The notes under the pieces: generated by a model
The model's input: the letters and a program-made list of their open reading frames with translations, nothing else
Database searches by the model: none
What the model was told of the DNA's origin: nothing
In this document: in pieces, positions 659 to 13,310 of the stretch
Layout of the letters: every line of letters begins with the position of its first letter
Position numbering within the stretch: position 1 is the stretch's first letter
Program-made: the position numbers and the translations under genes
DNA from: a bacterium
GTDB taxonomy: Bacteria > Blakebacterota > Blakebacteria > Blakebacterales > Blakebacteraceae
Reading direction: 5' to 3'
Assembly: GCA_025774615.1 (NCBI GenBank)
Contig: JALGVQ010000072.1
Span: 1 to 15,975 of the forward strand
DNA length: 15,975 bases

Positions 659-1765
659 ATGGCGTACACCTTGACCGACCTGCGGTATCAGTCTCTGGCG
701 CGCAATCCTGAAGAGATACTGGAAAACCTGAAGAACGACCTTGAGCTGAAAATCTCGGTGGGGATCTGGTACTTCACCCCCGGCGGCGGGCGGTTCCACG
801 ATCGGTTCGTACCCGCGGCATCGATCGAAGAGCGGATCGAGATGGCAGCCGGAATGGCGGATCTGGGGGTCTCGGGCATAGAGGCGCACTACCCCGATGA
901 AGTGAACGAGACGAACGTTCATCTCTACAAACAGCTTGAGGAAGAAGCAGGGATCCGGCTCGTGGCGGTCCCCTTCTCACACTTCTACGACAAGATGTTC
1001 GAATTCGGCAGTCTTTCGAATCCCGACGCTGGTGTCAGAGAGAAGGCAAAGGAAGTCGCTATCGGTGGCCTGCGGCTGATCGAGGAAATGGGTGCCGACA
1101 TGGCGATCTCCTGGCCGGGGATGGACGGTTACCGTTACCTGCATGGCAAGCCGTTCATGCATATGTGGGATCTGTTCGAGAGTTCCATGGCTGAGGCCAT
1201 GGACGAGGTGCCGGGGGTGCGGATCGCGATCGAACCGAAGCCGTATGAACCGGCAGCCAACAACATCTACCGCACCACTGCCGAGGGGGTCCTCGCCGCC
1301 CAGCGGATCGAGGCGAGGCTCACCAATCCGGAAAACCGCCGCCTGCTGGAGGATGGCCACGCACTGGTCGGGCTGAATCCGGAGGTCGGGCATGTCAAGA
1401 TGGGGTTCGAGATGCTGCCGGCGGCTTTCTCGCTGACAGCGATGGAAGGTCGCCTCGCCCACACCCACTGGAACAGTCAGCCCGATGGCAATTACGACCA
1501 GGACAACAATGTGGGTGCGGTCAACATGCAGGAGACAGAGGCCCTGCTCTACTCACTCTGGTCCTTCGGGTACAGAGAGTACTTCGGTATCGACATCAAC
1601 CCGGAGAACATGCCGGTCGAACGGGCAGTGGAACTGAACATCAGGGCCCTGGAGAGGATGAAGGAGCGGATCAGCCGCCTGCCGCATGAGCGGATACTGG
1701 AATGTCATCTCGACCCGGCCGGTCATCGCGGCGACCTGGAAGAGATCCTCATCGAGAACTGGTAG
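659..1765 (+). CDS. Xylose isomerase-like sugar isomerase (TIM barrel, class I-like length)
   Basis: This 368-residue cytoplasmic enzyme probably interconverts an aldose and a ketose, most likely D-xylose and D-xylulose. Compared from memory with Streptomyces-type xylose isomerase, the expected landmarks appear in order: GIWYFTPGGGRF (35-46); the catalytic pair H77...D80 in AHYPDE; W152 in SWPGMDG; E192 and K194 in IEPKPYEP; E242 and H245 in NPEVGH; D280 and D282 in YDQD; D312 in GIDINPE. One metal-1 ligand differs: the usual HIDLN is HTHWN here, putting His270 where Asp is expected. The length matches the shorter class I enzymes. ATG at 659 follows GGAGCAG (648-654) at a usable spacing. It leads an apparent operon, 55 nt before the kinase. 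A related substrate is possible given the substitution and the second TIM-barrel isomerase downstream. Confidence 0.82.
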   Translation: MAYTLTDLRYQSLARNPEEILENLKNDLELKISVGIWYFTPGGGRFHDRFVPAASIEERIEMAAGMADLGVSGIEAHYPDEVNETNVHLYKQLEEEAGIRLVAVPFSHFYDKMFEFGSLSNPDAGVREKAKEVAIGGLRLIEEMGADMAISWPGMDGYRYLHGKPFMHMWDLFESSMAEAMDEVPGVRIAIEPKPYEPAANNIYRTTAEGVLAAQRIEARLTNPENRRLLEDGHALVGLNPEVGHVKMGFEMLPAAFSLTAMEGRLAHTHWNSQPDGNYDQDNNVGAVNMQETEALLYSLWSFGYREYFGIDINPENMPVERAVELNIRALERMKERISRLPHERILECHLDPAGHRGDLEEILIENW

Positions 1766-1820
1766 GATCAGCGAGAGTGAGATCACCAGGTTACCAGGCA
1801 TTATTCAGGAGTGACCGCTA

Positions 1821-3367
1821 GTGGAAGGTATCTACGCCGGACTGGATGTATCGACCCAGAGCTGCAAGATCGTCGTTATCGATCTGGCGGAGGGGACTGC
1901 CGTCCACATCGACTCGGTGAATTACGACGACGACCTGCCCCACTACGGAACCCGTGATGGTGTTATCCAGGGGCTGGAGGAAGGTGTCTCGGCGTCTGAT
2001 CCCAGAATGTGGACCGAGGCGATCGATCTGCTCCTGCAGCGACTGATGGCATCGGATACAGACCAGAAACAGATCAGGTGTATCTCGGTTTCCGGCCAGC
2101 AGCATGGACTGGTGGCACTGGATGGCGTGGGAAACCTGGCCCGGAGCCACAGCAAACTGTGGAACGACTTCTCCACCGGTGAAGAGTGCCGCCTGCTGAC
2201 CGAACGACTCGGTGGCCCGGAGCGGATGATCGAAGAGGTGGGAAACACGCAGAGGACCGGGTACACCGCCCCGAAGATCCTCCACATGCTGCGGCATGAG
2301 CCGAGGACCTACGCTCTTGCCGCCACACTCTTCCTCGTGCACAACTACATCAACTGGTATCTGACAGGCGGGGCTGAGGGCGGGATTGCCGTCATGGAAC
2401 CGGGGGACACCTCGGGTATGGCCCTCTGGAATCCAATGACCCGTTCCTGGTCATCTGAAGTGCTCAAGGCGATCGATCCCGGCCTGCGGGAGAAACTCCC
2501 CCCGGTCGAACCGTCGGACCAGACCATCGGTGGTATCTCTCCTGCCCTGGCGGATCGGTTCGCTCTCTCCCCGGACTGCCGGATCGACGCGGGAAGCGGC
2601 GACAACATGTACGGCGCGATCGGCACAGGGAACTTCGAGCCGGGGATTGTGACCGTGAGCCTCGGAACCAGCGGAACTGCCTATACCTTCATGAAAGAAC
2701 CTTACGTGGATCCGACCGGTGAGATCGCCACATTCTGCGACAGCACCGGTCATTACCTGCCCCTGCTCTGCGTCTCCAACATGGCCAACGGGTACAACGC
2801 CGTTCTTGAACGGTATGGAATGAGCCATGAGGATTTCGATGCGGTGATCGACAAGACCGCGGCCGGCAATCACGGCCAACTCCTCATCCCCTGGTATGAG
2901 GGTGAGAGAACACCCGACCTGCCGCTCGCTTCACCGGTCATGTTCGGCTTCGGGCTGGATGGCCTCAACCGGGAATCATTCTGCCGGGCAGTACTCGAAG
3001 GCCACGTGTTGAACCTGTACACGGAGGCCTGGCGAACTCCTCCTCCTGGTGCCAGATGATCGCCGATATCTTCGAGGTGGAGACCGTGCCGGTCCCGGGT
3101 GAGGGAGCCGCGCTCGGTGCGGCTATCCACGCCGCATGGGTGTGGCAGAGGGAGCATGAAAACGGGTATACACTGAAGGAAGTTGCCGCTCCGTTCGTCA
3201 TTCCGGATGAGAGCCGGCGGAAGATACCACAGGAGCGAAACCGGGATCCGTACCGGATACAGAAACGGCTCTTCAGAGCGGTGAGTGACAGGATGAGAGG
3301 GCTCGGAGGAGAGGATCCCTTCACGTTGAGGAACGAGCTGCTCCGGATCTCTGATCCACACGATTGA
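1821..3367 (+). pseudogene. xylB: Xylulokinase (FGGY family), interrupted by an out-of-frame deletion near residue 400
   Basis: GTG at 1821 follows AGGAG with 9 nt spacing. The first frame (412 codons, stop 3057-3059) carries the FGGY signatures: GLDVSTQS (7-14), SGQQHG (91-96), LWND (113-116), GYTAPKIL (147-154), NYINWYLTG (175-183), the catalytic Asp in GSGDN (D261) and GTSGT (282-286), up to LEGHVLNLY. After residue 400 it becomes foreign (TEAWRTPPPGAR). The frame one base over reads GGLANSSWCQMIADIF, then GEGAALGAA, the normal C-terminal adenosine-binding lobe, ending at 3367. Between LEGHVLNLY and GGLANS about 19-20 residues of the family are absent, so this is a deletion of length 1 mod 3 (about 58-61 nt), not a one-base slip. 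As written, the product lacks the last fifth of the fold and would probably be inactive. It would phosphorylate D-xylulose if intact. Confidence 0.85.
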
Positions 3368-3387
3368 CTGACAGGAGAGTATATCAG

Positions 3388-4560
3388 ATGAAGGTCGACA
3401 GGAAACTCCGCATGGGAATGGTCGGAGGCGGCCCCGGCGCATTCATCGGTGAGGTGCATCGCAAGGCAGCAAGCATGGACGGTCTGATCGAAGTCGTTGG
3501 TGGCGCTTTCGACATAGATCCTGAAAAGTCATTTCAGATGAGAGATGAACTCCACGTCGATCCAGCGCGGGTCTATGGCAGCTATGCAGAGATGATAGAA
3601 AAGGAAACTGCACTTCCCGAATCTGAACGGATGGACTTCATCACGATCTGCACTCCGAACAACTGGCACTTCCCCATCGCCCGGGATGTACTGAAAGCCG
3701 GCTTCCACGTCATGTGCGAGAAGCCGATGACTATCAACGTCGACGAAGCCAGAGAGCTCGGTGATCTCGTGCGCAGTACCGGCAAGATCTTCGGACTGAT
3801 GCACAACTACACCGGCTATCCGATGGTGAAGCTGGCCCGGGACATCGCCCGGGGTGGCGAGCTGGGCAAGGTGCGCAAGATCGTGGTACGCTATCCGCAG
3901 GGGTGGCTGGCAACGGCCCTGGAACTGACCGGTCACATCCAGGCCAGCTGGCGGGCCGATCCCGAGCAGAGCGGAGCATCGGGTTGTGGCGGCGATATCG
4001 GTACCCATGCCGAGAACCTTGCCGAGTACATCACCGGCCTGAAGATGACCCACCTGTGCGCCGAGCTGACCACATTCGTCGAAGGACGCCGGCTTGATGA
4101 TGACATCAACTGCCTGGTGAAATACGACAACGGGGCCAGCGGTGTCCTGCATGCCAGCCAGATATCCATCGGGGAGGAGAACAACCTGGGCATCTGGATC
4201 TATGGCGAGACGGGCGCACTGGAATGGCACCAGGAACACCCCAACTACCTGTACGTGAAGCGACCGGATGAACCGGTACAGGTATGGCGCCGTGGGAACG
4301 ACTACGTGGCGGAGAAGAGTCCTGCCGCGGGCCGGGCCACGCGGCTTCCCGCCGGCCATCCTGAGGCGTTCATCGAGGCCTTCGCCAACAACTACGTCAA
4401 CTTCTCCGATACCGTGAGAGCGTCCATGGAGGGAATCGAACCCGACCTATTGGCACTCGATTTCCCTGACGTGGAAGACGGCCTGCGGGGCATGCTCTTC
4501 CTGAAAACTCTGGTTGAAAGCGCAGGCAGCAGTGAGAAGTGGACGGAGATTCACATCTGA
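3388..4560 (+). CDS. Gfo/Idh/MocA-family NAD(P)-dependent oxidoreductase
   Basis: The 390-residue protein starts at ATG 3388 with AGGAG at 3373-3377. A TTG at 3364 in the same frame overlaps the xylB stop and has no better ribosome site. The N-terminal Rossmann domain shows [11 protein letters not shown] (11-21) and [12 protein letters not shown]. The catalytic lysine is K112 in CEKPM. The C-terminal domain carries the family's Asp/His pair in GGDIGTH (D203, H207). These enzymes oxidise or reduce sugar or inositol hydroxyls with NAD(P). The substrate cannot be told from the sequence, but the position between a xylulokinase and a xylose-isomerase-like TIM-barrel protein suggests a sugar or sugar-derived keto intermediate. 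It starts 20 nt after the xylB stop and ends 20 nt before the next gene, so it is probably in the same operon. No signal peptide is seen, so it should be cytoplasmic. Confidence 0.88.
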
Positions 4561-4580
4561 TCAACAAGGAGCGTACCAGG

Positions 4581-5585
4581 ATGTCGAGACCAGTAACGAT
4601 TTTCACCGGCCAGTGGGCCGACCTCTCCCTGGAAGAACTTGCCAAGATGATGGCTGGATTCGGGTATGACGGGCTCGAGCTGGCCTGCTGGGGGGACCAC
4701 TTCGAGGTGGATCGGGCCCTTGCTGAAGATGACTACTGCGAGAAGAAACGGGCTCTGCTGAAAAACAACGGGCTCGATGTCTTTGCCATCTCATCCCATC
4801 TGGTCGGACAGGCCGTCTGTGACAACATCGACGAGCGGCACCAGAGTATCCTGCCGGAGGACGTCTGGGGAGACGGCGATCCCGAAGGAGTCCGGCAACG
4901 CGCCGCGCTGAAGATGATCGACACCGCCCGGGCAGCGGCGAAGCTGGGAATCGATGTCGTCAACGGCTTCACCGGCAGTTCCATCTGGCATCTGATCTAT
5001 TCATTCCCACCCGTCTCACCCGAGATGGTCCAGGCCGGCTTCGATGATTTCGCGAAGCGCTGGATCCCGATCCTGGATGAATTCAAGGCCCTGGGTGTGA
5101 AGTTCGCGCTCGAGGTGCACCCCACCGAGATCGCCTTCGATATCGCCACGGCCCAGCGGGCGATCGAAGCCCTCAACGGCCACGAGTCGTTCGGTTTCAA
5201 CTACGACCCGAGCCATCTGGGCTACCAGGGTGTTGATTACGTGCAGTTCATCTACACCTTCGGCGACCGCATCTTCCACTGCCACATGAAGGATGCCTGG
5301 TGGGACCATGGAGACGGTACCGTCGGTGTATTCGGTGGTCATACCGAGTTCGCCGATCCACGCCGTTTCTGGGATTTCCGCTCGATCGGCCACGGTGACA
5401 TCAACTTCGAGGAGATCATCGTCGCCCTGAACGATATCGGCTATCACGGTCCCCTCTCCATCGAGTGGGAAGACAGCCGCATGGATCGCGAACACGGTGC
5501 CCGGGAAGCGTGCGAGGCCGTGAGGCAGTTCGACTTCAAACCATCGGGCGTGGCCTTCGACGCAGCGTTCGAGGGTGAGAGCTGA
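4581..5585 (+). CDS. Sugar phosphate isomerase/epimerase family protein (xylose isomerase-like TIM barrel, AP endonuclease 2 superfamily)
   Basis: This 334-residue protein starts at ATG 4581, 9 nt after AAGGAG, in preference to an upstream in-frame ATG at 4539 inside the dehydrogenase gene. The fold is recognisable from [15 protein letters not shown] (27-41) and [12 protein letters not shown]. The expected metal ligands are visible: E178 in LEVHP, D209 in NYDPSH, H235 in FHCHMKD and E295 in [17 protein letters not shown] (269-279) is the family's G.GD..F motif. It should bind a divalent metal and isomerise or epimerise a keto sugar. This type is often paired with Gfo/Idh/MocA dehydrogenases, as here, so the two probably act on successive intermediates. 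The exact reaction is unknown. It is the last intact gene of the plus-strand operon. Confidence 0.85.
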
Positions 5586-5605: not shown

Positions 5606-5735
5606 ATGAAACCAATGGCCAGCGCCCGGGGGTATGGCGACCGCCTCCTCCCGGGCGTTGTTGTCGGCCTTCTCGACTATGCGATCGGCAATTACATCGG
5701 TTACGCGATCGCGATACTCATGCGGGGGCTGCTAA
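5606..5735 (+). pseudogene. C-terminal remnant of a multi-spanning membrane protein (DUF819-like)
   Basis: The plus-strand frame from ATG 5606 reads MASARGYGDRLLPGVVVG followed by LLDYAIGNYIGYAIAILM. The pattern of an M/P-rich turn, then LLPGV, then a GYAIGNYxG-like membrane helix resembles, from memory, the last helix and C-terminus of DUF819-type membrane proteins of about 400 residues. After about 43 codons the frame runs on antisense through the peroxiredoxin gene, where no membrane character remains, so the natural stop is missing. TAA one frame over, at 5733-5735, may be the original end. The 5' portion (about 350 codons) is absent, and the fragment starts 20 nt after the preceding stop. 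I read this as the tail of a lost transporter gene of the sugar locus. The family assignment is tentative. Confidence 0.4.
5621..5659. terminator. GC-rich hairpin between convergent genes
   Basis: CGCCCGGG (5623-5630) pairs with CCCGGGCG (5650-5657), extended by A-T and G-T pairs outside. The 19-nt loop contains a second small stem, GGC/GCC (5636-5638 / 5643-5645). It sits between the plus-strand isomerase gene and the minus-strand peroxiredoxin gene, where a bidirectional terminator would be expected. No clear U-run follows on either strand, and the hairpin lies within the membrane-protein remnant, so it may be incidental. Confidence 0.3.
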
Positions 5736-6340
5736 TCCGACGCCATATCGGTCGTCCAGACCTCCCATACCTTCCCTACCAGATCAGGTCCCGGTTTCAG
5801 GGTCATCTTCCCCGGCTTCCATCCGGAGGGAGTTGCCTCAGCCCCCTTTGTCTCTCTCACCAGCTGAAATGCCTGGACCTGACGCAGCGTCTCGGAGACG
5901 TTCCTGCCAACCGGCGGAGTGAGAACTTCATATCCCTGGACGATACCATCGGGATCGATGATGAAACGGCCCCGCGTCTCGACCCCGGCATCTTCATCGT
6001 AAATGCCATAGACCTCTCCGACCTTCCCGCCGGCATCGGAAAGCATGGGATAGGGGATCCCCCCATCGACCATCTTCGAGAGTTCGTGGTCATTCCACAT
6101 CTTGTGTACGAACATGCTGTCGACACTCATCGACATCACATCGACACCCAGTTCCTGAAATGTGCTGTAGTTATCGGCGACCGCCGATACTTCGGTCGCT
6201 CAGACGAAGGTGAAATCACCCGGATAGAAGCAGAGCACGACCCACTTCCCCAGATGATCGGAAAGCTTCTCCTCGGTGAATTCCCCCTTGTGGTAAGCAG
6301 GGGCGACGAAATCAGGTGCAGGCTTCCCAACTTTGATCAT
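5732..6340 (-). CDS. Selenocysteine-containing AhpC-type peroxiredoxin (UGA decoded as Sec47)
   Basis: The 202-residue protein reads [20 protein letters not shown], then [14 protein letters not shown], then an in-frame UGA (6202-6200), then [11 protein letters not shown]. AhpC/Prx1-type peroxiredoxins have FTFVCPTE here, so UGA replaces the peroxidatic cysteine exactly. The frame stays open and conserved to TAG at 5732-5734, with P40, T44 and R123 ([11 protein letters not shown]) completing the active site. Readthrough as selenocysteine is therefore expected, helped by a SECIS-like hairpin downstream. The resolving cysteine, normally in EVCPANW near the C-terminus, is Thr170 (EATPSGW); the only cysteine is Cys37. 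It would thus reduce peroxides as a 1-Sec enzyme in the cytoplasm, resolved by an external thiol or perhaps by Cys37. ATG 6340 is preceded by AAGGA at about 6 nt. Conventional gene callers would split it at the UGA. Confidence 0.87.
6172..6202 (-). promoter_or_regulatory. Bacterial SECIS element with its UGA Sec codon
   Basis: After the UGA (6202-6200) come 10 nt, then a perfect 7-bp stem TATCGGC (6189-6183) / GCCGATA (6178-6172) closed by the tetraloop GGTC (6182-6179). The loop begins 17 nt after the UGA. Known bacterial SECIS elements lie within the coding region, place the loop about 16-37 nt after UGA and have G in the first loop positions. The E. coli fdhF element has a GGUC-containing loop about 18 nt after its UGA. 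I see no clear bulged U in the stem, unlike fdhF. A competing stem GCGACC/GGTCGC directly after the UGA is also possible. Confidence 0.75.
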
Positions 6341-6401
6341 GTTGTGTCCTTCCCTGAGAATCGGTGTCGGTTCCTGATTCTGCGACTCGACCGGGTCCTC
6401 A

Positions 6402-6441
6402 CCGACAGGTCCACCTGTCGGCCGGGCACACCCTGCGGCCG
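6402..6441 (-). promoter_or_regulatory. Structured leader hairpins upstream of the peroxiredoxin gene
   Basis: Two stems share bases: CCGACAGG/CCTGTCGG (6402-6409 / 6414-6421, loop of 4) and CGGCCG/CGGCCG (6419-6424 / 6436-6441, loop of 11). They overlap at 6419-6421 and so are mutually exclusive. They lie in the leader of about 160 nt between the extended -10 box and the start at 6340. No U-run follows, so a simple terminator is unlikely; a role in transcript stability or leader control is a guess. Confidence 0.3.
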
Positions 6442-6508
6442 GCTTATCAGCCAAAACGGGCCTCCATTCTCTTGCGGGTGGGTACAACGGGGGCACTGCC
6501 TGGAAATG

Positions 6509-6577: not shown

Positions 6578-7378
6578 TCAGCGCATTTCCGAGAGCAGCC
6601 GCCTGGCTTCCAGCTTCCGATTGGAATCAGAGTGATATGCCTCAGGCAGTCTGAGTACGGTCTCGAATTCCGCGCGGGCCAGGGCCTTCTCCCTCATTTC
6701 CAGGTAGGTTTTTCCCAGTTCCAGGTGGTGCAGAATTACGTCGGGTTCGAGACTGATAGCCCTCCGGTAGAGTCGTACCGCCTCTTCATTGGATGCCGGA
6801 GGCAGGCCGCCGTAGAAGATCCTCGCCGCCAGCTTCAGCGCCCGCGGGAGATTCGCGACACAGTAATGCCATCGCGCCAGTCCGTGGATGGCGCCGGTAT
6901 GATCAGGATCGAGAGAGATGGCCCGCTCGAAAGCCGACTTGGACTCGGCGGCCATATCCACTGTCTCACGACCTCCGGGCAACTGTGAGAGCAGGCCGGT
7001 CGTCTGCCCGACCTGGAACCAGCCCTCCGCGTCGTCGGGGTTCACATCTACAGCTCGGCGCGCGTTCAGGACCGCTTCCTGGCAGACGGGTTTTGCATCC
7101 CGCGGCGTCACATCCCTCAGGATGACTTCTGATTTATCAACCAGGATCTCGGCCATCCAGCACAGGAGCATGTAATCATCAGGAGCGCTTCGGAGAAGTG
7201 GACGGAGGATCTGGAGCGCCCGGTCATACTCTCCTGAGGCATTGAGTTCACTGACTGTCGTCAGCTGATCGTTCAGACCTTGCTGGCAGGCAGCCGTCGA
7301 TCGGGGGGAAAGGAGGATCGCAGCCACAAGAACCATACCTGCAAGGGCCTGTCGCCGGATGGTAGTTGAACCCATCAT
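6578..7378 (-). CDS. Secreted tetratricopeptide-repeat protein (RMD-like)
   Basis: The 266-residue protein has an N-terminal signal sequence (RRQALAGMVLVAAILLSP, about residues 9-26) and probably a cleavage site near STAAC, which does not form a good lipobox. TPR-like helices follow: ALQILRPLLRSAPDD, AVLNARRAVDVNPDDAEGW, AFERAISLDPDHTGAIHG, YRRAISLEPDVILHHLEL and LARAEFETVLRLPEA. The ARIFYGGLPPAS..EAV segment resembles the RMD (regulator of microtubule dynamics) type of TPR protein found in bacteria as well as animals. It probably acts as a periplasmic scaffold. Its ATG overlaps the permease stop as ATGA, and a second ATG follows directly, so translation is coupled to the permease. It is the last gene of the padR-permease operon. 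The partner is unknown. Confidence 0.8.
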   Translation of the reverse strand: MMGSTTIRRQALAGMVLVAAILLSPRSTAACQQGLNDQLTTVSELNASGEYDRALQILRPLLRSAPDDYMLLCWMAEILVDKSEVILRDVTPRDAKPVCQEAVLNARRAVDVNPDDAEGWFQVGQTTGLLSQLPGGRETVDMAAESKSAFERAISLDPDHTGAIHGLARWHYCVANLPRALKLAARIFYGGLPPASNEEAVRLYRRAISLEPDVILHHLELGKTYLEMREKALARAEFETVLRLPEAYHSDSNRKLEARRLLSEMR

Positions 7379-10116
7379 TCCGCTCTCAGGGCATCCACTG
7401 GAGTGATCCGTATGGCGCGTCGGGCCGGGAAGAAGCTGGCCAATAACGCAATCAGAATCAGAATCAGAAGAGGTATCCCCATCAACAGCGGCTCAAACGC
7501 TCTGATCCCGGGGAATGCCGCACTTGCCAGCACCGAGACTCCCGTCGCACAGATCAGACCGATACACAATCCGATAAAAGTCAGGCGCATACTCCGTCCC
7601 ACCACGAAGCGCAGCACATCACTATTGAGCGCACCGAGCGCCATCCGGACACCGATCTCCCGTGTCTGACGGTTCACGAAATAGGCCACGAGTCCATACA
7701 ATCCTATCGAAGCCAGCAGCATGGCGATGAAACCGAACATCCACATCACTCCGGAGGCGATACTGTATGGCATCAGAGAAAAATTGATCCGCTCCGCCAT
7801 GGTGTTCAACTCACCAACCGGAAGCATCGGATCAAGATCAGTCACCTCTCGACGAACCGCTTTGACCAGCATGAGGGGATTTGAATCGGCTCTGATATTG
7901 ATGGTCATCATACCGAGATAATTCTGGTCGAAGGCGTAGTAGTAGTGAGGTCTCGGTTTCTCGCTCAAAGCGAAATACTTGCCGGTGGGAACCATCCCCA
8001 CCACTTCGAACCAGGTGTCGCCATGCTTCACCCGCTTCCCGATGGGGCTCTCGCCCGGCCAGTACCGGTCCCGAAACATCTCGTTGACGATGAGGACCGG
8101 TTGGGTACCCTCATCATCGAAAGTCACAAAACTCCTACCTTCCAGGATGGGAATCCCCATGGCTGTGAAATATCCCTCATCGACAGTGTTGACCATGACC
8201 TGAAGTCGTTCAGTCTCTGGTGCCTCGTATCCTTCCGGTTCACATATATGCGTCTGTGACATCAGACTGAGAGGGATGTTGAATGCCATCCCGACCGCCT
8301 CCACTCCTGGAAGGGTACTCAGGCGATTTTTCAGGTCGTGGAAGAAGATATTGCCTTCTTCCTCGCTGTACCCCTGCACGGCCAGGTCGAGTGAGACCAG
8401 CAGCTGGTTCTCGGAATCGAATCCCGGATCGATCTCCCGCATATGCTCCATCCCCCTGAGTACCAACCCTCCTCCCACGAGCAGGGTGAACGAAGCGGCC
8501 ACCTGCACCATGACGAGCATGCGGCGGGAGAGTGCCGCCCGGCGGGACAGCATGCTGTCCCCGGACTTCAGAGCCGAGACGATATTCGCCCGGGTGGCAT
8601 GGATCGCGGGTGTCAGACTTATCAATACCGTCGCTACAGCGGTGGATATGAAGATAAAGAGTATATCGCTCCAGAGGATCGTCCTCCCCGTCCCGAAGGC
8701 AATGGGAAGATCCATCGGCGCCGTCACGCCATTGCTGGCTCCATTCAGGGCCACCGCAATGATAATGGCCAGAACCCCGGCAATGATCGCCATTGCGGTG
8801 CTCTCTCCCAGAAGGGATCTAATCAGGCGACCACGACCAGCACCCAGCGCCATCCTGATTCCGATCTCCTGGCGACGACCTTCGGTCCGGGCAAGCAGCA
8901 GACCAGCTACGTTGGCACATGAGAGGATCAGAACCAGTGCAACGATGGCGAATCCAAAGGAAATGAACTGCACGAAGCCAGCCCGCACCATGGGATCCAG
9001 GCTGGCCTCCTTTTCGGGGAGCACAGTGAACGCCTTACCGATATAGAGATCGGGATACCGGTCAGCCAGACTCTCCCTCATCATTCCGACCCGCTCAGCA
9101 GCCTGATCGGGGAACACACCCGGTTTCAGGCGACAGATGATCGACCGGAACACATGGTTGTTCCGCTTGTGGATATCTGTCAGCAGGGGCGCGGCTCTGG
9201 TATGCATCGCAACCGGCACCCAGAGACGCATCACCATCCCGACCGAATCTCCGTAGAATCCCTTTTCCGCTACTCCGACGACAGTGAAGGGATAGCGGTT
9301 GATCTGAATCTGTTGGCCGAGGATGTCGGGGTCACTGCCGAAACGCTCCTGCCAGAATCCATAACTGATAACAACAACCGGATGAGTATCTTCTGTCTCA
9401 TCCTCTTCAGGCAGAAATCCTCGTCCCAATTCCATCTCCGTACCGAAACACCTGAAGAAATCTCCAGAAACGAGAGATCCCCATACACGACGGTTTTGAT
9501 CGTCAATGGTCAGGTTCATTGACATCGGAGTGGCAAGAACAAGTTGATCGAAGATTCCCACTTCCCGCCGAATATCCTCAAAATCAGGCAGGGAAACCGA
9601 GCTGTACTCGTTCCCCCCTTCCCATCGTGTGTATATTCTGACTATCCGATCAGAGTCTTTCGCAGGGGATGGCTGCAGCAGCGTACCTACTGCGGTCGAA
9701 TACAGTACTGCGCCACCACCTATGGAGACCGCCAGGCAGAGCACGGCGGCTGCAGTCACTCCGGGGTTCTTCCGTATCTGTCGAAAAGCAAACTTCATGT
9801 CCTGGACCGTATCCGCAAGCCCGATCCACAACCCACCCCTCAGACGGAGCCGCCCTTCCATCCTCTCAGTCCATACCGTGAAACGTGGCCGTCGCCTTCG
9901 CCGCTCGGAGTGGTTCAGGCCATCAGCGAGGGTGGTCCAGTCGAACCGGTCGATTGCGTATTGCTCGGCCTCATCCTCCGGCAGACTCCGGCTCAGGGCT
10001 TCTTCATGGAAGTCCTGAAGCTGTCCGGCGATCTCCTCGATGATCCGTTCCTCCCGCAGGTCCTTCAGATCCGGGAGGTCGAACCGCTCCCGGACCTCAC
10101 GTCTCCAGTCAGGCAT
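7375..10116 (-). CDS. Duplicated MacB/FtsX-type permease (ADOP family)
   Basis: The 913-residue inner-membrane protein has two MacB_PCD-FtsX units in one chain. A charged soluble prefix (1 to about 60, with LREERIIEEIAGQLQDFHEE) is typical of the 'acidobacterial duplicated orphan permease' group. Then come a helix at about 118-140 (PGVTAAAVLCLAVSIGGG), a periplasmic MacB_PCD domain, and the first FtsX unit with the loop RRQEIGIRMALGAGRGR. The second unit starts near RRMLVMVQVAASFTLLVGGG and ends with REIGVRMALGALNSDVLR and ASFFPARRAIRITPVDALRAE. Partner ATPases drive related MacB-type complexes, but none is encoded in this window, hence 'orphan'. It overlaps padR by 8 nt upstream and the TPR gene by 4 nt downstream. 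Its ribosome site is weak, which fits coupling. Substrate and role (export, stress sensing) are unknown. Confidence 0.88.
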   Translation of the reverse strand: MPDWRREVRERFDLPDLKDLREERIIEEIAGQLQDFHEEALSRSLPEDEAEQYAIDRFDWTTLADGLNHSERRRRRPRFTVWTERMEGRLRLRGGLWIGLADTVQDMKFAFRQIRKNPGVTAAAVLCLAVSIGGGAVLYSTAVGTLLQPSPAKDSDRIVRIYTRWEGGNEYSSVSLPDFEDIRREVGIFDQLVLATPMSMNLTIDDQNRRVWGSLVSGDFFRCFGTEMELGRGFLPEEDETEDTHPVVVISYGFWQERFGSDPDILGQQIQINRYPFTVVGVAEKGFYGDSVGMVMRLWVPVAMHTRAAPLLTDIHKRNNHVFRSIICRLKPGVFPDQAAERVGMMRESLADRYPDLYIGKAFTVLPEKEASLDPMVRAGFVQFISFGFAIVALVLILSCANVAGLLLARTEGRRQEIGIRMALGAGRGRLIRSLLGESTAMAIIAGVLAIIIAVALNGASNGVTAPMDLPIAFGTGRTILWSDILFIFISTAVATVLISLTPAIHATRANIVSALKSGDSMLSRRAALSRRMLVMVQVAASFTLLVGGGLVLRGMEHMREIDPGFDSENQLLVSLDLAVQGYSEEEGNIFFHDLKNRLSTLPGVEAVGMAFNIPLSLMSQTHICEPEGYEAPETERLQVMVNTVDEGYFTAMGIPILEGRSFVTFDDEGTQPVLIVNEMFRDRYWPGESPIGKRVKHGDTWFEVVGMVPTGKYFALSEKPRPHYYYAFDQNYLGMMTINIRADSNPLMLVKAVRREVTDLDPMLPVGELNTMAERINFSLMPYSIASGVMWMFGFIAMLLASIGLYGLVAYFVNRQTREIGVRMALGALNSDVLRFVVGRSMRLTFIGLCIGLICATGVSVLASAAFPGIRAFEPLLMGIPLLILILIALLASFFPARRAIRITPVDALRAE

Positions 10117-10441
10117 GACTCAGACCTATCGCTTCGTTCATGGCCGACGAAAATTCCTTCCACCGCTCCGTCTGCTCTGTCAGCACCCGTTTTCCGTCAC
10201 GGGTCAGGTGATAGAAACAGCGGCGTCGTTCACCCGGTTTCTCGACCCAGATCCCCTCGATCCAGCCACGATCCTCCATGCGGTAGAGCACCGGGTAGAG
10301 AGTTGCCGGATTGAACTGGAGGCGGCCGCTGGACCTGAGCTCGATCAGCTTGCCGATCTGGTATCCGTGACGCGCTTCGTCCTTGAGCATGCTGAGGACC
10401 AGCAGTTCGACACTCCCCTTCTTGAGTTCGGGACCGAACAC
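10109..10441 (-). CDS. PadR-family transcriptional regulator
   Basis: This 110-residue winged-helix protein reads KKGSVELLVLSMLKDEARHG, then YQIGKLIELRS, then FNPATLYPVLYRMEDRGWIE and RRCFYHLTRDGKRVL, the normal order of a PadR DNA-binding domain with its wing hairpin. A short C-terminal helix (TEQTERWKEFSSAMNEAIG) serves for dimerisation. The start is GTG at 10441, supported by a near-perfect AAGGAGG 6 nt upstream. It is the first gene of the operon with the duplicated permease and the TPR protein, overlapping the permease start by 8 nt. PadR proteins near such permeases usually repress their own operon; this is inferred here from the position and from a dyad upstream at 10466-10490. Confidence 0.9.
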   Translation of the reverse strand: MFGPELKKGSVELLVLSMLKDEARHGYQIGKLIELRSSGRLQFNPATLYPVLYRMEDRGWIEGIWVEKPGERRRCFYHLTRDGKRVLTEQTERWKEFSSAMNEAIGLSHA

Positions 10442-11972: not shown

Positions 11973-13310
11973 TCAATCGAGTGTCAGATTGTTGTATGCA
12001 TGGACCAGCAGACTGCGAACCGGGACCTCATACGGACACGCCGACTCACAATGCCCCGGACAATCGAGGCAGGGCTGTGTATCGGCCGGACCCAGACCCG
12101 TGAACTTCCGCATGGCATGCTTCTCCCTGCCATGCGCTTCAAAATAGTGGTTATAGCGCATGATGGTGTTCACCGGCACCTGGTGGGGACAGGCAGGTTC
12201 GCACACTCCACAAGCGTGGCGACAGTAGTACTGTCCCAGAGTGGTCTCGTACCCGTTCAGGAGCGCATCGTCATCGACAGTCAGTTTCTGTCCCGACAGG
12301 CTGACGAAGTTCTCGAGTTCATCGAAGGTGTTGATGCTCGGACAGACACAATGAACATCCTGATTATTGAGGCAGAACCGTATCGCCGCGGAACGCGCTT
12401 CTGCTTCCGACTCGATGCCGTGCTCACTCTTGAACGCATCCGCCCTGGAGATGTACTCCTCATATGCCTGCGCCATCTGAGCCCTCGACTCAGAGAGCTG
12501 GCGCCCTGCCTGTTCGGTCATGGCGAGGCTGTTCTGAATACTCGCGTACAAGTTGATCGGATCGGTCTTCATGAGGGTGACACCCATCCCCCGGGACTTG
12601 CACATCTCAATGATACTCTCCCCCTGCTCTTTCTGGAGGAAGTTGTAGACGAAGAGTGCCACATCGAATCTCCCGTCTTCCACAGCGGCTCCAAGAACCG
12701 CCTCCATCGGAACATCGATCCGGCCCCACCACGACTGCTCCATTCCGTGATTGGAGAGGCCAAGGAAACGGACCTTGCCATCAGCCTTCAGTTCCTGGAA
12801 GGCCGCATGGAATGCCTCGTTCCGGACCTGTTCGACCTCCGGCGTCATATGGATCATGAGACAATCGGCATAATCGGTCTGCAGGCGCCCCAGACACTGC
12901 TGGAAGCGATCTTTGAGGGCTTCTTTCGTGGATCCCCCACCGAAGGTCAGGTTCAGTTTGGTGGTCAGAAATATCTTCGAACGGTCCCTGCCTCGGAGTG
13001 CCTCTCCAACAGAGCGCTCGGCCTGACCACCCACATAGTGCTCGGCAGTGTCGATGTAGTTGACCCCCATATCGAGAGCCACCTGCAGTACGTTCGTATT
13101 GTTCAGAGTACCGGTTCCGAAACTGATATCGGACACTTCGAAGCCGGTGCGTCCGAGAGTCCGGTATTCCCTGATCTTCAGATCCTGGCCCTGCCGATCC
13201 TCACCCCTGATCCCGGGTATTCCCTGCCCCGCGACCACACCACCACCCACGACTGCCATACCAGTCGACTTCATGAATCCACGACGACTGAATCTGTTCT
13301 TCATTGTCAT
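11973..13310 (-). CDS. Tat-exported aldo/keto reductase with two C-terminal four-cysteine iron-sulfur motifs
   Basis: The 445-residue protein begins with a Tat signal (FSRRGFMKSTGMAVVGGGVV, residues 7-26), then an aldo/keto reductase barrel starting YRTLGRTGFEVSDISFGTG. The catalytic tetrad is visible: D87 and Y92 in DTAEHY, K118 in TTKLN and H154 in MIHM. The C-terminal part carries C363-x3-C-x2-C-x3-C374-P and C414-x2-C-x3-C-x3-C425-P, the ferredoxin-like motifs of the 'aldo/keto reductase with 4Fe-4S' group. It is folded with cofactors in the cytoplasm and exported. Electron transfer through the clusters could replace or supplement a soluble nicotinamide. The substrate is unknown. ATG 13310 has GGAGG 5 nt upstream. 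It probably shares a transcript with the downstream lipoprotein gene. The 145 nt upstream (13311-13455) show no clear promoter or terminator. Confidence 0.88.
   Translation of the reverse strand: MTMKNRFSRRGFMKSTGMAVVGGGVVAGQGIPGIRGEDRQGQDLKIREYRTLGRTGFEVSDISFGTGTLNNTNVLQVALDMGVNYIDTAEHYVGGQAERSVGEALRGRDRSKIFLTTKLNLTFGGGSTKEALKDRFQQCLGRLQTDYADCLMIHMTPEVEQVRNEAFHAAFQELKADGKVRFLGLSNHGMEQSWWGRIDVPMEAVLGAAVEDGRFDVALFVYNFLQKEQGESIIEMCKSRGMGVTLMKTDPINLYASIQNSLAMTEQAGRQLSESRAQMAQAYEEYISRADAFKSEHGIESEAEARSAAIRFCLNNQDVHCVCPSINTFDELENFVSLSGQKLTVDDDALLNGYETTLGQYYCRHACGVCEPACPHQVPVNTIMRYNHYFEAHGREKHAMRKFTGLGPADTQPCLDCPGHCESACPYEVPVRSLLVHAYNNLTLD

Follow-up and report, generated by a model that had tools for sequence, protein, structure and literature searches.

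The question raised by this locus is what protein is made from a peroxiredoxin gene whose reading frame is interrupted by a TGA at the codon of the peroxidatic cysteine. In the window, that is, the whole stretch of 15,975 nucleotides analysed here, a frame of 202 residues starts on the reverse strand at ATG 6340, ends in the residues MASD at position 5732, and contains a single TGA at codon 47. This frame, its coordinates and the position of the TGA are exactly as described in a first-pass annotation made from the letters alone, which also anticipated that the enzyme would be split by automatic annotation; an ordinary gene caller indeed yields two fragments (6200-6496 and 5732-6139). In the same line, its claim of one protein on both sides of the TGA is borne out by a continuous match to the family model NF040737 over residues 1-199, by alignments to human Prx2 and others that span the stop, and by the conservation of R123, of the DPDG segment and of all 155 codons past the TGA. 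The proposed extent of the gene was correct for the frame and the TGA but not for the start, since the same frame runs upstream, strongly conserved, as far as a TTG at 6454; the gene thus occupies 5732-6454, R123 becomes R161, and the residue encoded by the TGA is number 85 of this long form. Altogether, that reading identified the selenoprotein and its family correctly, and had overlooked the upstream start with its tail, the SECIS element and the loss of the C-terminal resolving cysteine. The gene should be annotated as one selenoprotein over this whole interval (Table 1).

Table 1. Features of the prxU locus in window coordinates.
Feature	Position	Strand	Details
prxU, long form	5732..6454	-	TTG start 6454, 240 residues including Sec85, TAG 5732-5734
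prxU, short form (predicted)	5732..6340	-	inner ATG, 202 residues including Sec47; the feature of the first-pass annotation
UGA almost certainly read as selenocysteine, PxxxTxxU	6200..6202	-	TGA in 80/80 relatives; Sec machinery in genome
Bacterial SECIS hairpin, 8 pairs, apical GU in GGUC loop	6172..6189	-	columns 14-31 from the U of UGA; 98.8% of cells paired
Cys37 (Cys75 of the long form), sole other Cys of the short form	6230..6232	-	in 80/80 relatives; C75 invariant in 50 aligned proteins
Inner Shine-Dalgarno-like GGGAAGGA of ATG 6340	6347..6354	-	nucleotide-level selection across loci
Conserved N-terminal motif, invariant Cys = residue 9 of the long form	6398..6433	-	C-[AST]-R-P in 77/77 loci
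Outer Shine-Dalgarno GGAGG of the TTG start	6461..6465	-	read from sequence

As for the family, the earlier comparison with PrxU has become a formal match. Against the NCBIfam model NF040737 (peroxi_PrxU, curated cut-off of 270 bits), the short form scores 395 bits and the long form 414 bits, the latter from its residues 7-237. The AhpC equivalog model reaches only 187-188 bits against a cut-off of 272. By both sequence and fold, the relatives in the PDB are peroxiredoxins of the typical Prx1 type, the best of them human Prx2 with 44% identity. The gene therefore very probably encodes a PrxU, a peroxiredoxin that contains selenocysteine; the family is itself already known, and the window gene adds one more member to it.

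The machinery for decoding UGA is found in the same genome. Hits to selB (321 bits), selA (509 bits) and selD (351 bits) and a tRNA-Sec with a TCA anticodon were all obtained, the four components that had been suggested as a check; they are spread over four different contigs of a draft assembly (3.3 Mb, 82% complete, 324 contigs), into which binning errors could in principle have introduced them. Moreover, in the genome collection the 80 nearest relatives all have TGA as codon 47; their labels include Krumholzibacteriota, Desulfobacteraceae and other Deltaproteobacteria, Spirochaetes, Fibrobacter, Cloacimonadota, Chloroflexota and Acidobacteria, among others. Desulfosarcina alkanivorans PL12 (L097), a relative in culture, has this gene too. 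Homologs with U or C at this column had been expected, and Cys variants do occur among more distant relatives. When 297 genomes were sampled from the phylum of one relative, 95 carried a PrxU above the cut-off, and almost every one of these contains a single TGA. The sel genes, the invariable TGA of the nearest relatives and the family match strongly support the earlier suggestion that the organism decodes UGA as selenocysteine, and the TGA at 6202-6200 is almost certainly read in this way.

A further line of evidence comes from the RNA just downstream, where the aligned genes share a compact hairpin that begins 10 nt past the UGA and leaves the invariant GU of columns 22-23 unpaired at its tip. 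Over 81 sequences, 94 two-sided changes accompany the almost complete pairing of the stem, against 24 changes and 85.5% of cells paired in shuffles, and slid registers of the hairpin reach 37-71%. Pair 18-27 is seen as GC, AU, UA, CG and GU, pair 15-30 as UA, CG, AU and GC, and pair 21-24 as AU, GC, UA, GU and UG. After synonymous codons had been shuffled among sequences, 476 ± 4 of the 560 possible pairs were formed (maximum 492 in 2000), compared with 556 in the real alignment. This shuffle takes no account of ancestry, and a ranking of all 28,085 variable-column pairs of the gene was therefore added; the three variable pairs of the stem took ranks 1-3, both by excess pairing and by mutual information, with the caveat that shared ancestry is incompletely removed by either control. 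It was the alignment alone that settled the hairpin: the single window sequence has an MFE z-score of -1.7 with a minimum that favours another register, and a search of the window against Rfam returned no match. Natural controls are provided by relatives that differ at the catalytic codon. A further 15 Sec genes retain an NGUN loop on a stem of 5-8 contiguous pairs. One Sec-coding relative outside these (L166) is an exception, with no hairpin at this position, and in each of 11 Cys-bearing relatives examined the hairpin is lost, at most 3 contiguous pairs being left. The same holds within one genome (G295), in which the Sec copy (L169) forms all 8 pairs and the Cys copy (L149) forms 3, with its loop altered to CTTG. 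The prxU genes thus offer a compact and strongly covarying SECIS together with its own Cys controls.

These observations also bear on other ways of reading the TGA. In a draft of so many contigs, a pseudogene or an assembly error, in which a functional Cys codon had been lost or miscalled in one sequence, might come to mind; yet a second genome from this genus and 79 other relatives carry the same TGA, the codons behind it remain conserved and the SECIS covaries. With TGA and hairpin both conserved in independent genomes, this explanation was rejected, and its probability is negligible. Just as slight is the chance of a recoded genetic code in which TGA would stand for an ordinary amino acid genome-wide. 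The prxU frame would be open whatever residue TGA encoded, but the whole Sec apparatus is present, the in-frame TGA falls exactly at the catalytic Cys position, and TGA still terminates genes. The adjoining gene of the window stops at one (5583-5585), and in 34 of the 81 prxU genes the frame itself is closed by a TGA directly behind residue 202, so that in these organisms it is also a real terminator; recoding was rejected. Cysteine insertion at UGA is known from other organisms, and the Sec machinery might place cysteine in some or all of the protein made, for instance under selenium limitation. We regard this as very improbable: were Cys the normal residue, retention of TGA in 80 of 80 genes would be hard to explain, because a single mutation leads to a Cys codon and some relatives do have one.

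Under the favoured reading of the codon as selenocysteine, SelB loaded with Sec-tRNA-Sec would bind the hairpin just past UGA 6202-6200, and the bound complex would insert selenocysteine as the peroxidatic residue. Its selenolate might then attack H2O2 or organic peroxides to give a selenenic acid, which would be reduced via a thiol by a donor of the thioredoxin type. Peroxidase activity is thus a prediction from the sequence of the window protein.

The less expected part of the case lies upstream. In the genome search, the match to NF040737 extended beyond ATG 6340, and the outer start, 114 bases before the inner one, adds an extension of 38 residues. Its C-[AST]-R-P motif is found in every relative with enough upstream DNA, always in the frame of the enzyme and followed by a linker of variable length, and C9, R11 and P12 are invariant in 50 aligned proteins. 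Across loci the motif uses all six Arg codons, all four Pro codons and both Cys codons, and this free variation indicates that conservation acts at the protein level. A start codon stands 8 codons ahead of the tail Cys in nearly all loci (7 or 4 in a few); it is usually ATG, but GTG in the sister genome (L018) and TTG in the window, each with a Shine-Dalgarno sequence. Translation in frame of a 38-residue tail with an invariant Cys is therefore supported by the sequence. A search of the whole genome for the tail motif gave three matches, of which only the one at prxU is in frame. Since the long form matches NF040737 from residue 7, most of the tail is already held in the NCBI model. Within the openly available full text, no description of the tail with its tandem starts was found.

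A Shine-Dalgarno 4-mer precedes the inner ATG in 79 of 80 loci, compared with 48 of 494 other in-gene ATGs, and for GGAGG the counts are 64 of 80 and 4 of 494. At the codons that make up this site, Lys is written AAG over its alternative by 55:2 (579:727 gene-wide, p about 1e-16) and Glu is written GAG by 63:4 (398:567 gene-wide, p about 1e-18), p values that are nominal because the sequences are related. Moreover, 26 of the 27 loci with other residues at these codons still carry the 4-mer, and selection on the inner Shine-Dalgarno at the nucleotide level is well supported. The retention of this selected site suggests that both starts are used, which would give two proteoforms of 240 and 202 amino acids. 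It could instead be that only the outer start is used and that the inner ATG with its Shine-Dalgarno is an ancestral relic or a ribosome brake before the UGA. Tail-less relatives start near the inner position, so the inner site is probably ancestral; nevertheless, it is still under selection over a clade spanning many phyla, and use of the outer start alone seems unlikely.

What the tail does may be connected with a residue that is missing from the enzyme. The C-terminal resolving Cys of typical 2-Cys peroxiredoxins (VCPAGW) is absent from the window protein, which reads ATPSGW, and in the tail-bearing proteins its place is taken by Thr, Ala, Leu or Met, always together with Cys37. Among 134 proteins collected, the C-terminal Cys was absent in all 107 with the tail Cys, and the tail was absent in all 16 with the C-terminal Cys. 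Six proteins with neither (L150, L152, L156-L158 and L161) all have Cys158 and Cys190. The remainder comprises four loci that are truncated or masked on the upstream side and one protein (L118) with an N-terminal Cys of another kind. In the tree, the tail-bearing PrxU proteins form one clade (100/100) and few changes are needed, so that the mutual exclusion counts as about one event, and a resolving role for Cys9 is accordingly offered here as a hypothesis. On that footing, the tail Cys9, or else the invariant Cys37, may replace the missing C-terminal resolving Cys.

A more detailed scenario is that PrxU of many phyla is made as two proteins per gene, a long form whose C-x-R-P tail supplies the resolving thiol and a short form without it, giving a mixture of 2-Cys-like and 1-Cys-like enzymes; as a whole this is tentative and rather doubtful. 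An only slightly less than even chance is given to the tail serving for docking or targeting, for instance towards a dedicated reductase, and its Cys for something other than resolution, with Cys37 or an outside thiol resolving the selenenic acid. Conservation of the tail Arg, Pro and glycines besides the Cys goes beyond the needs of a resolving thiol, the motif is in frame at prxU only, and AlphaFold predicts the tail to be disordered; against docking or targeting stand the mutual exclusion of tail and C-terminal Cys and the Cys47 copy L149, which has lost the tail Arg and kept the tail Cys. The AlphaFold model was also inspected for docking of the tail onto the active site; with the tail disordered it is silent either way, which is a reservation for the resolving-Cys hypothesis as well. 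For a known family, the loss of the classical resolving Cys in the company of an invariant Cys tail and a selected second start poses a testable question.

Other selenoprotein genes were encountered in the course of this work. The source genome has a second Sec peroxiredoxin gene (L100; G000:C244:16375-16962, + strand), with UGA in FTFV-U-ATE and partial copies in the sister genome G001 (L101 and L102). It shares with the window prxU the UGA at the peroxidatic position, but keeps the C-terminal resolving Cys (EACPSKW), carries Phe for Cys37, lacks the C-x-R-P tail and, at 173 bits, lies below the PrxU cut-off; its hairpin has 5 pairs and another loop with a UCUG tip. The selD gene (L015; G000:C273:7717-8634) has an in-frame UGA of its own in TCAG-U-ASKLGP, so that the genome probably encodes at least three selenoproteins. 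In G295, tail-bearing PrxU occurs as both the Sec copy L169 and the Cys copy L149, the latter without hairpin and tail Arg.

With regard to neighbouring genes, a fixed prxU operon was rejected, as the neighbours differ between loci: at most 4 kb from prxU, 9 of 81 loci have a gene resembling FAD/CoA-disulfide reductases, 5 a catalase-like gene and 5 a Fur-like gene, all named by a look at their sequences. In the window itself, a cluster reminiscent of sugar catabolism on the forward strand (659-5585) comprises two xylose-isomerase-like TIM barrels, a GFO/IDH/MocA oxidoreductase and an FGGY sugar kinase (1821-3367) that appears to be divided between two overlapping ORFs (1821-3059 and 3056-3367), whether by a frameshift, an assembly error or a real split. 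The reverse strand holds a MacB/FtsX-type permease (7375-10116) and, overlapping it, a small gene whose sequence resembles a PadR-type regulator (10109-10441; together 7375-10441), as well as an aldo/keto reductase (11973-13310) with a cysteine-rich, ferredoxin-like C-terminal end.

Compared with known systems, the hairpin resembles the SECIS of E. coli fdhF, whose upper stem-loop lies about 11 nt past the UGA with an unpaired GU at its tip and a bulged U17 (PMC8659212). Both start 10-11 nt after the UGA, span about 17-18 nt and share the GU tip, but the window hairpin has no bulged U in its 5' arm, columns 14-21 being paired throughout. With typical 2-Cys peroxiredoxins such as AhpC and human Prx1/2, the protein has in common the fold, the PxxxTxx(C/U) motif, the conserved Arg and the GWKPG C-terminal region; it differs in having Sec for the peroxidatic Cys, and in the tail-bearing group the C-terminal resolving Cys is replaced by Thr, Ala or Leu. 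The closest known systems are the NF040737 family and, alongside it, PrxU of Eubacterium acidaminophilum (Sohling et al. 2001, as cited in PMC13188914, ref. 83), with which the window protein shares Sec at the peroxidatic position (TxxU). With the family it has this same residue in common, together with the Prx1/AhpC fold and a score far over the cut-off, and among the features tested none separates the two.
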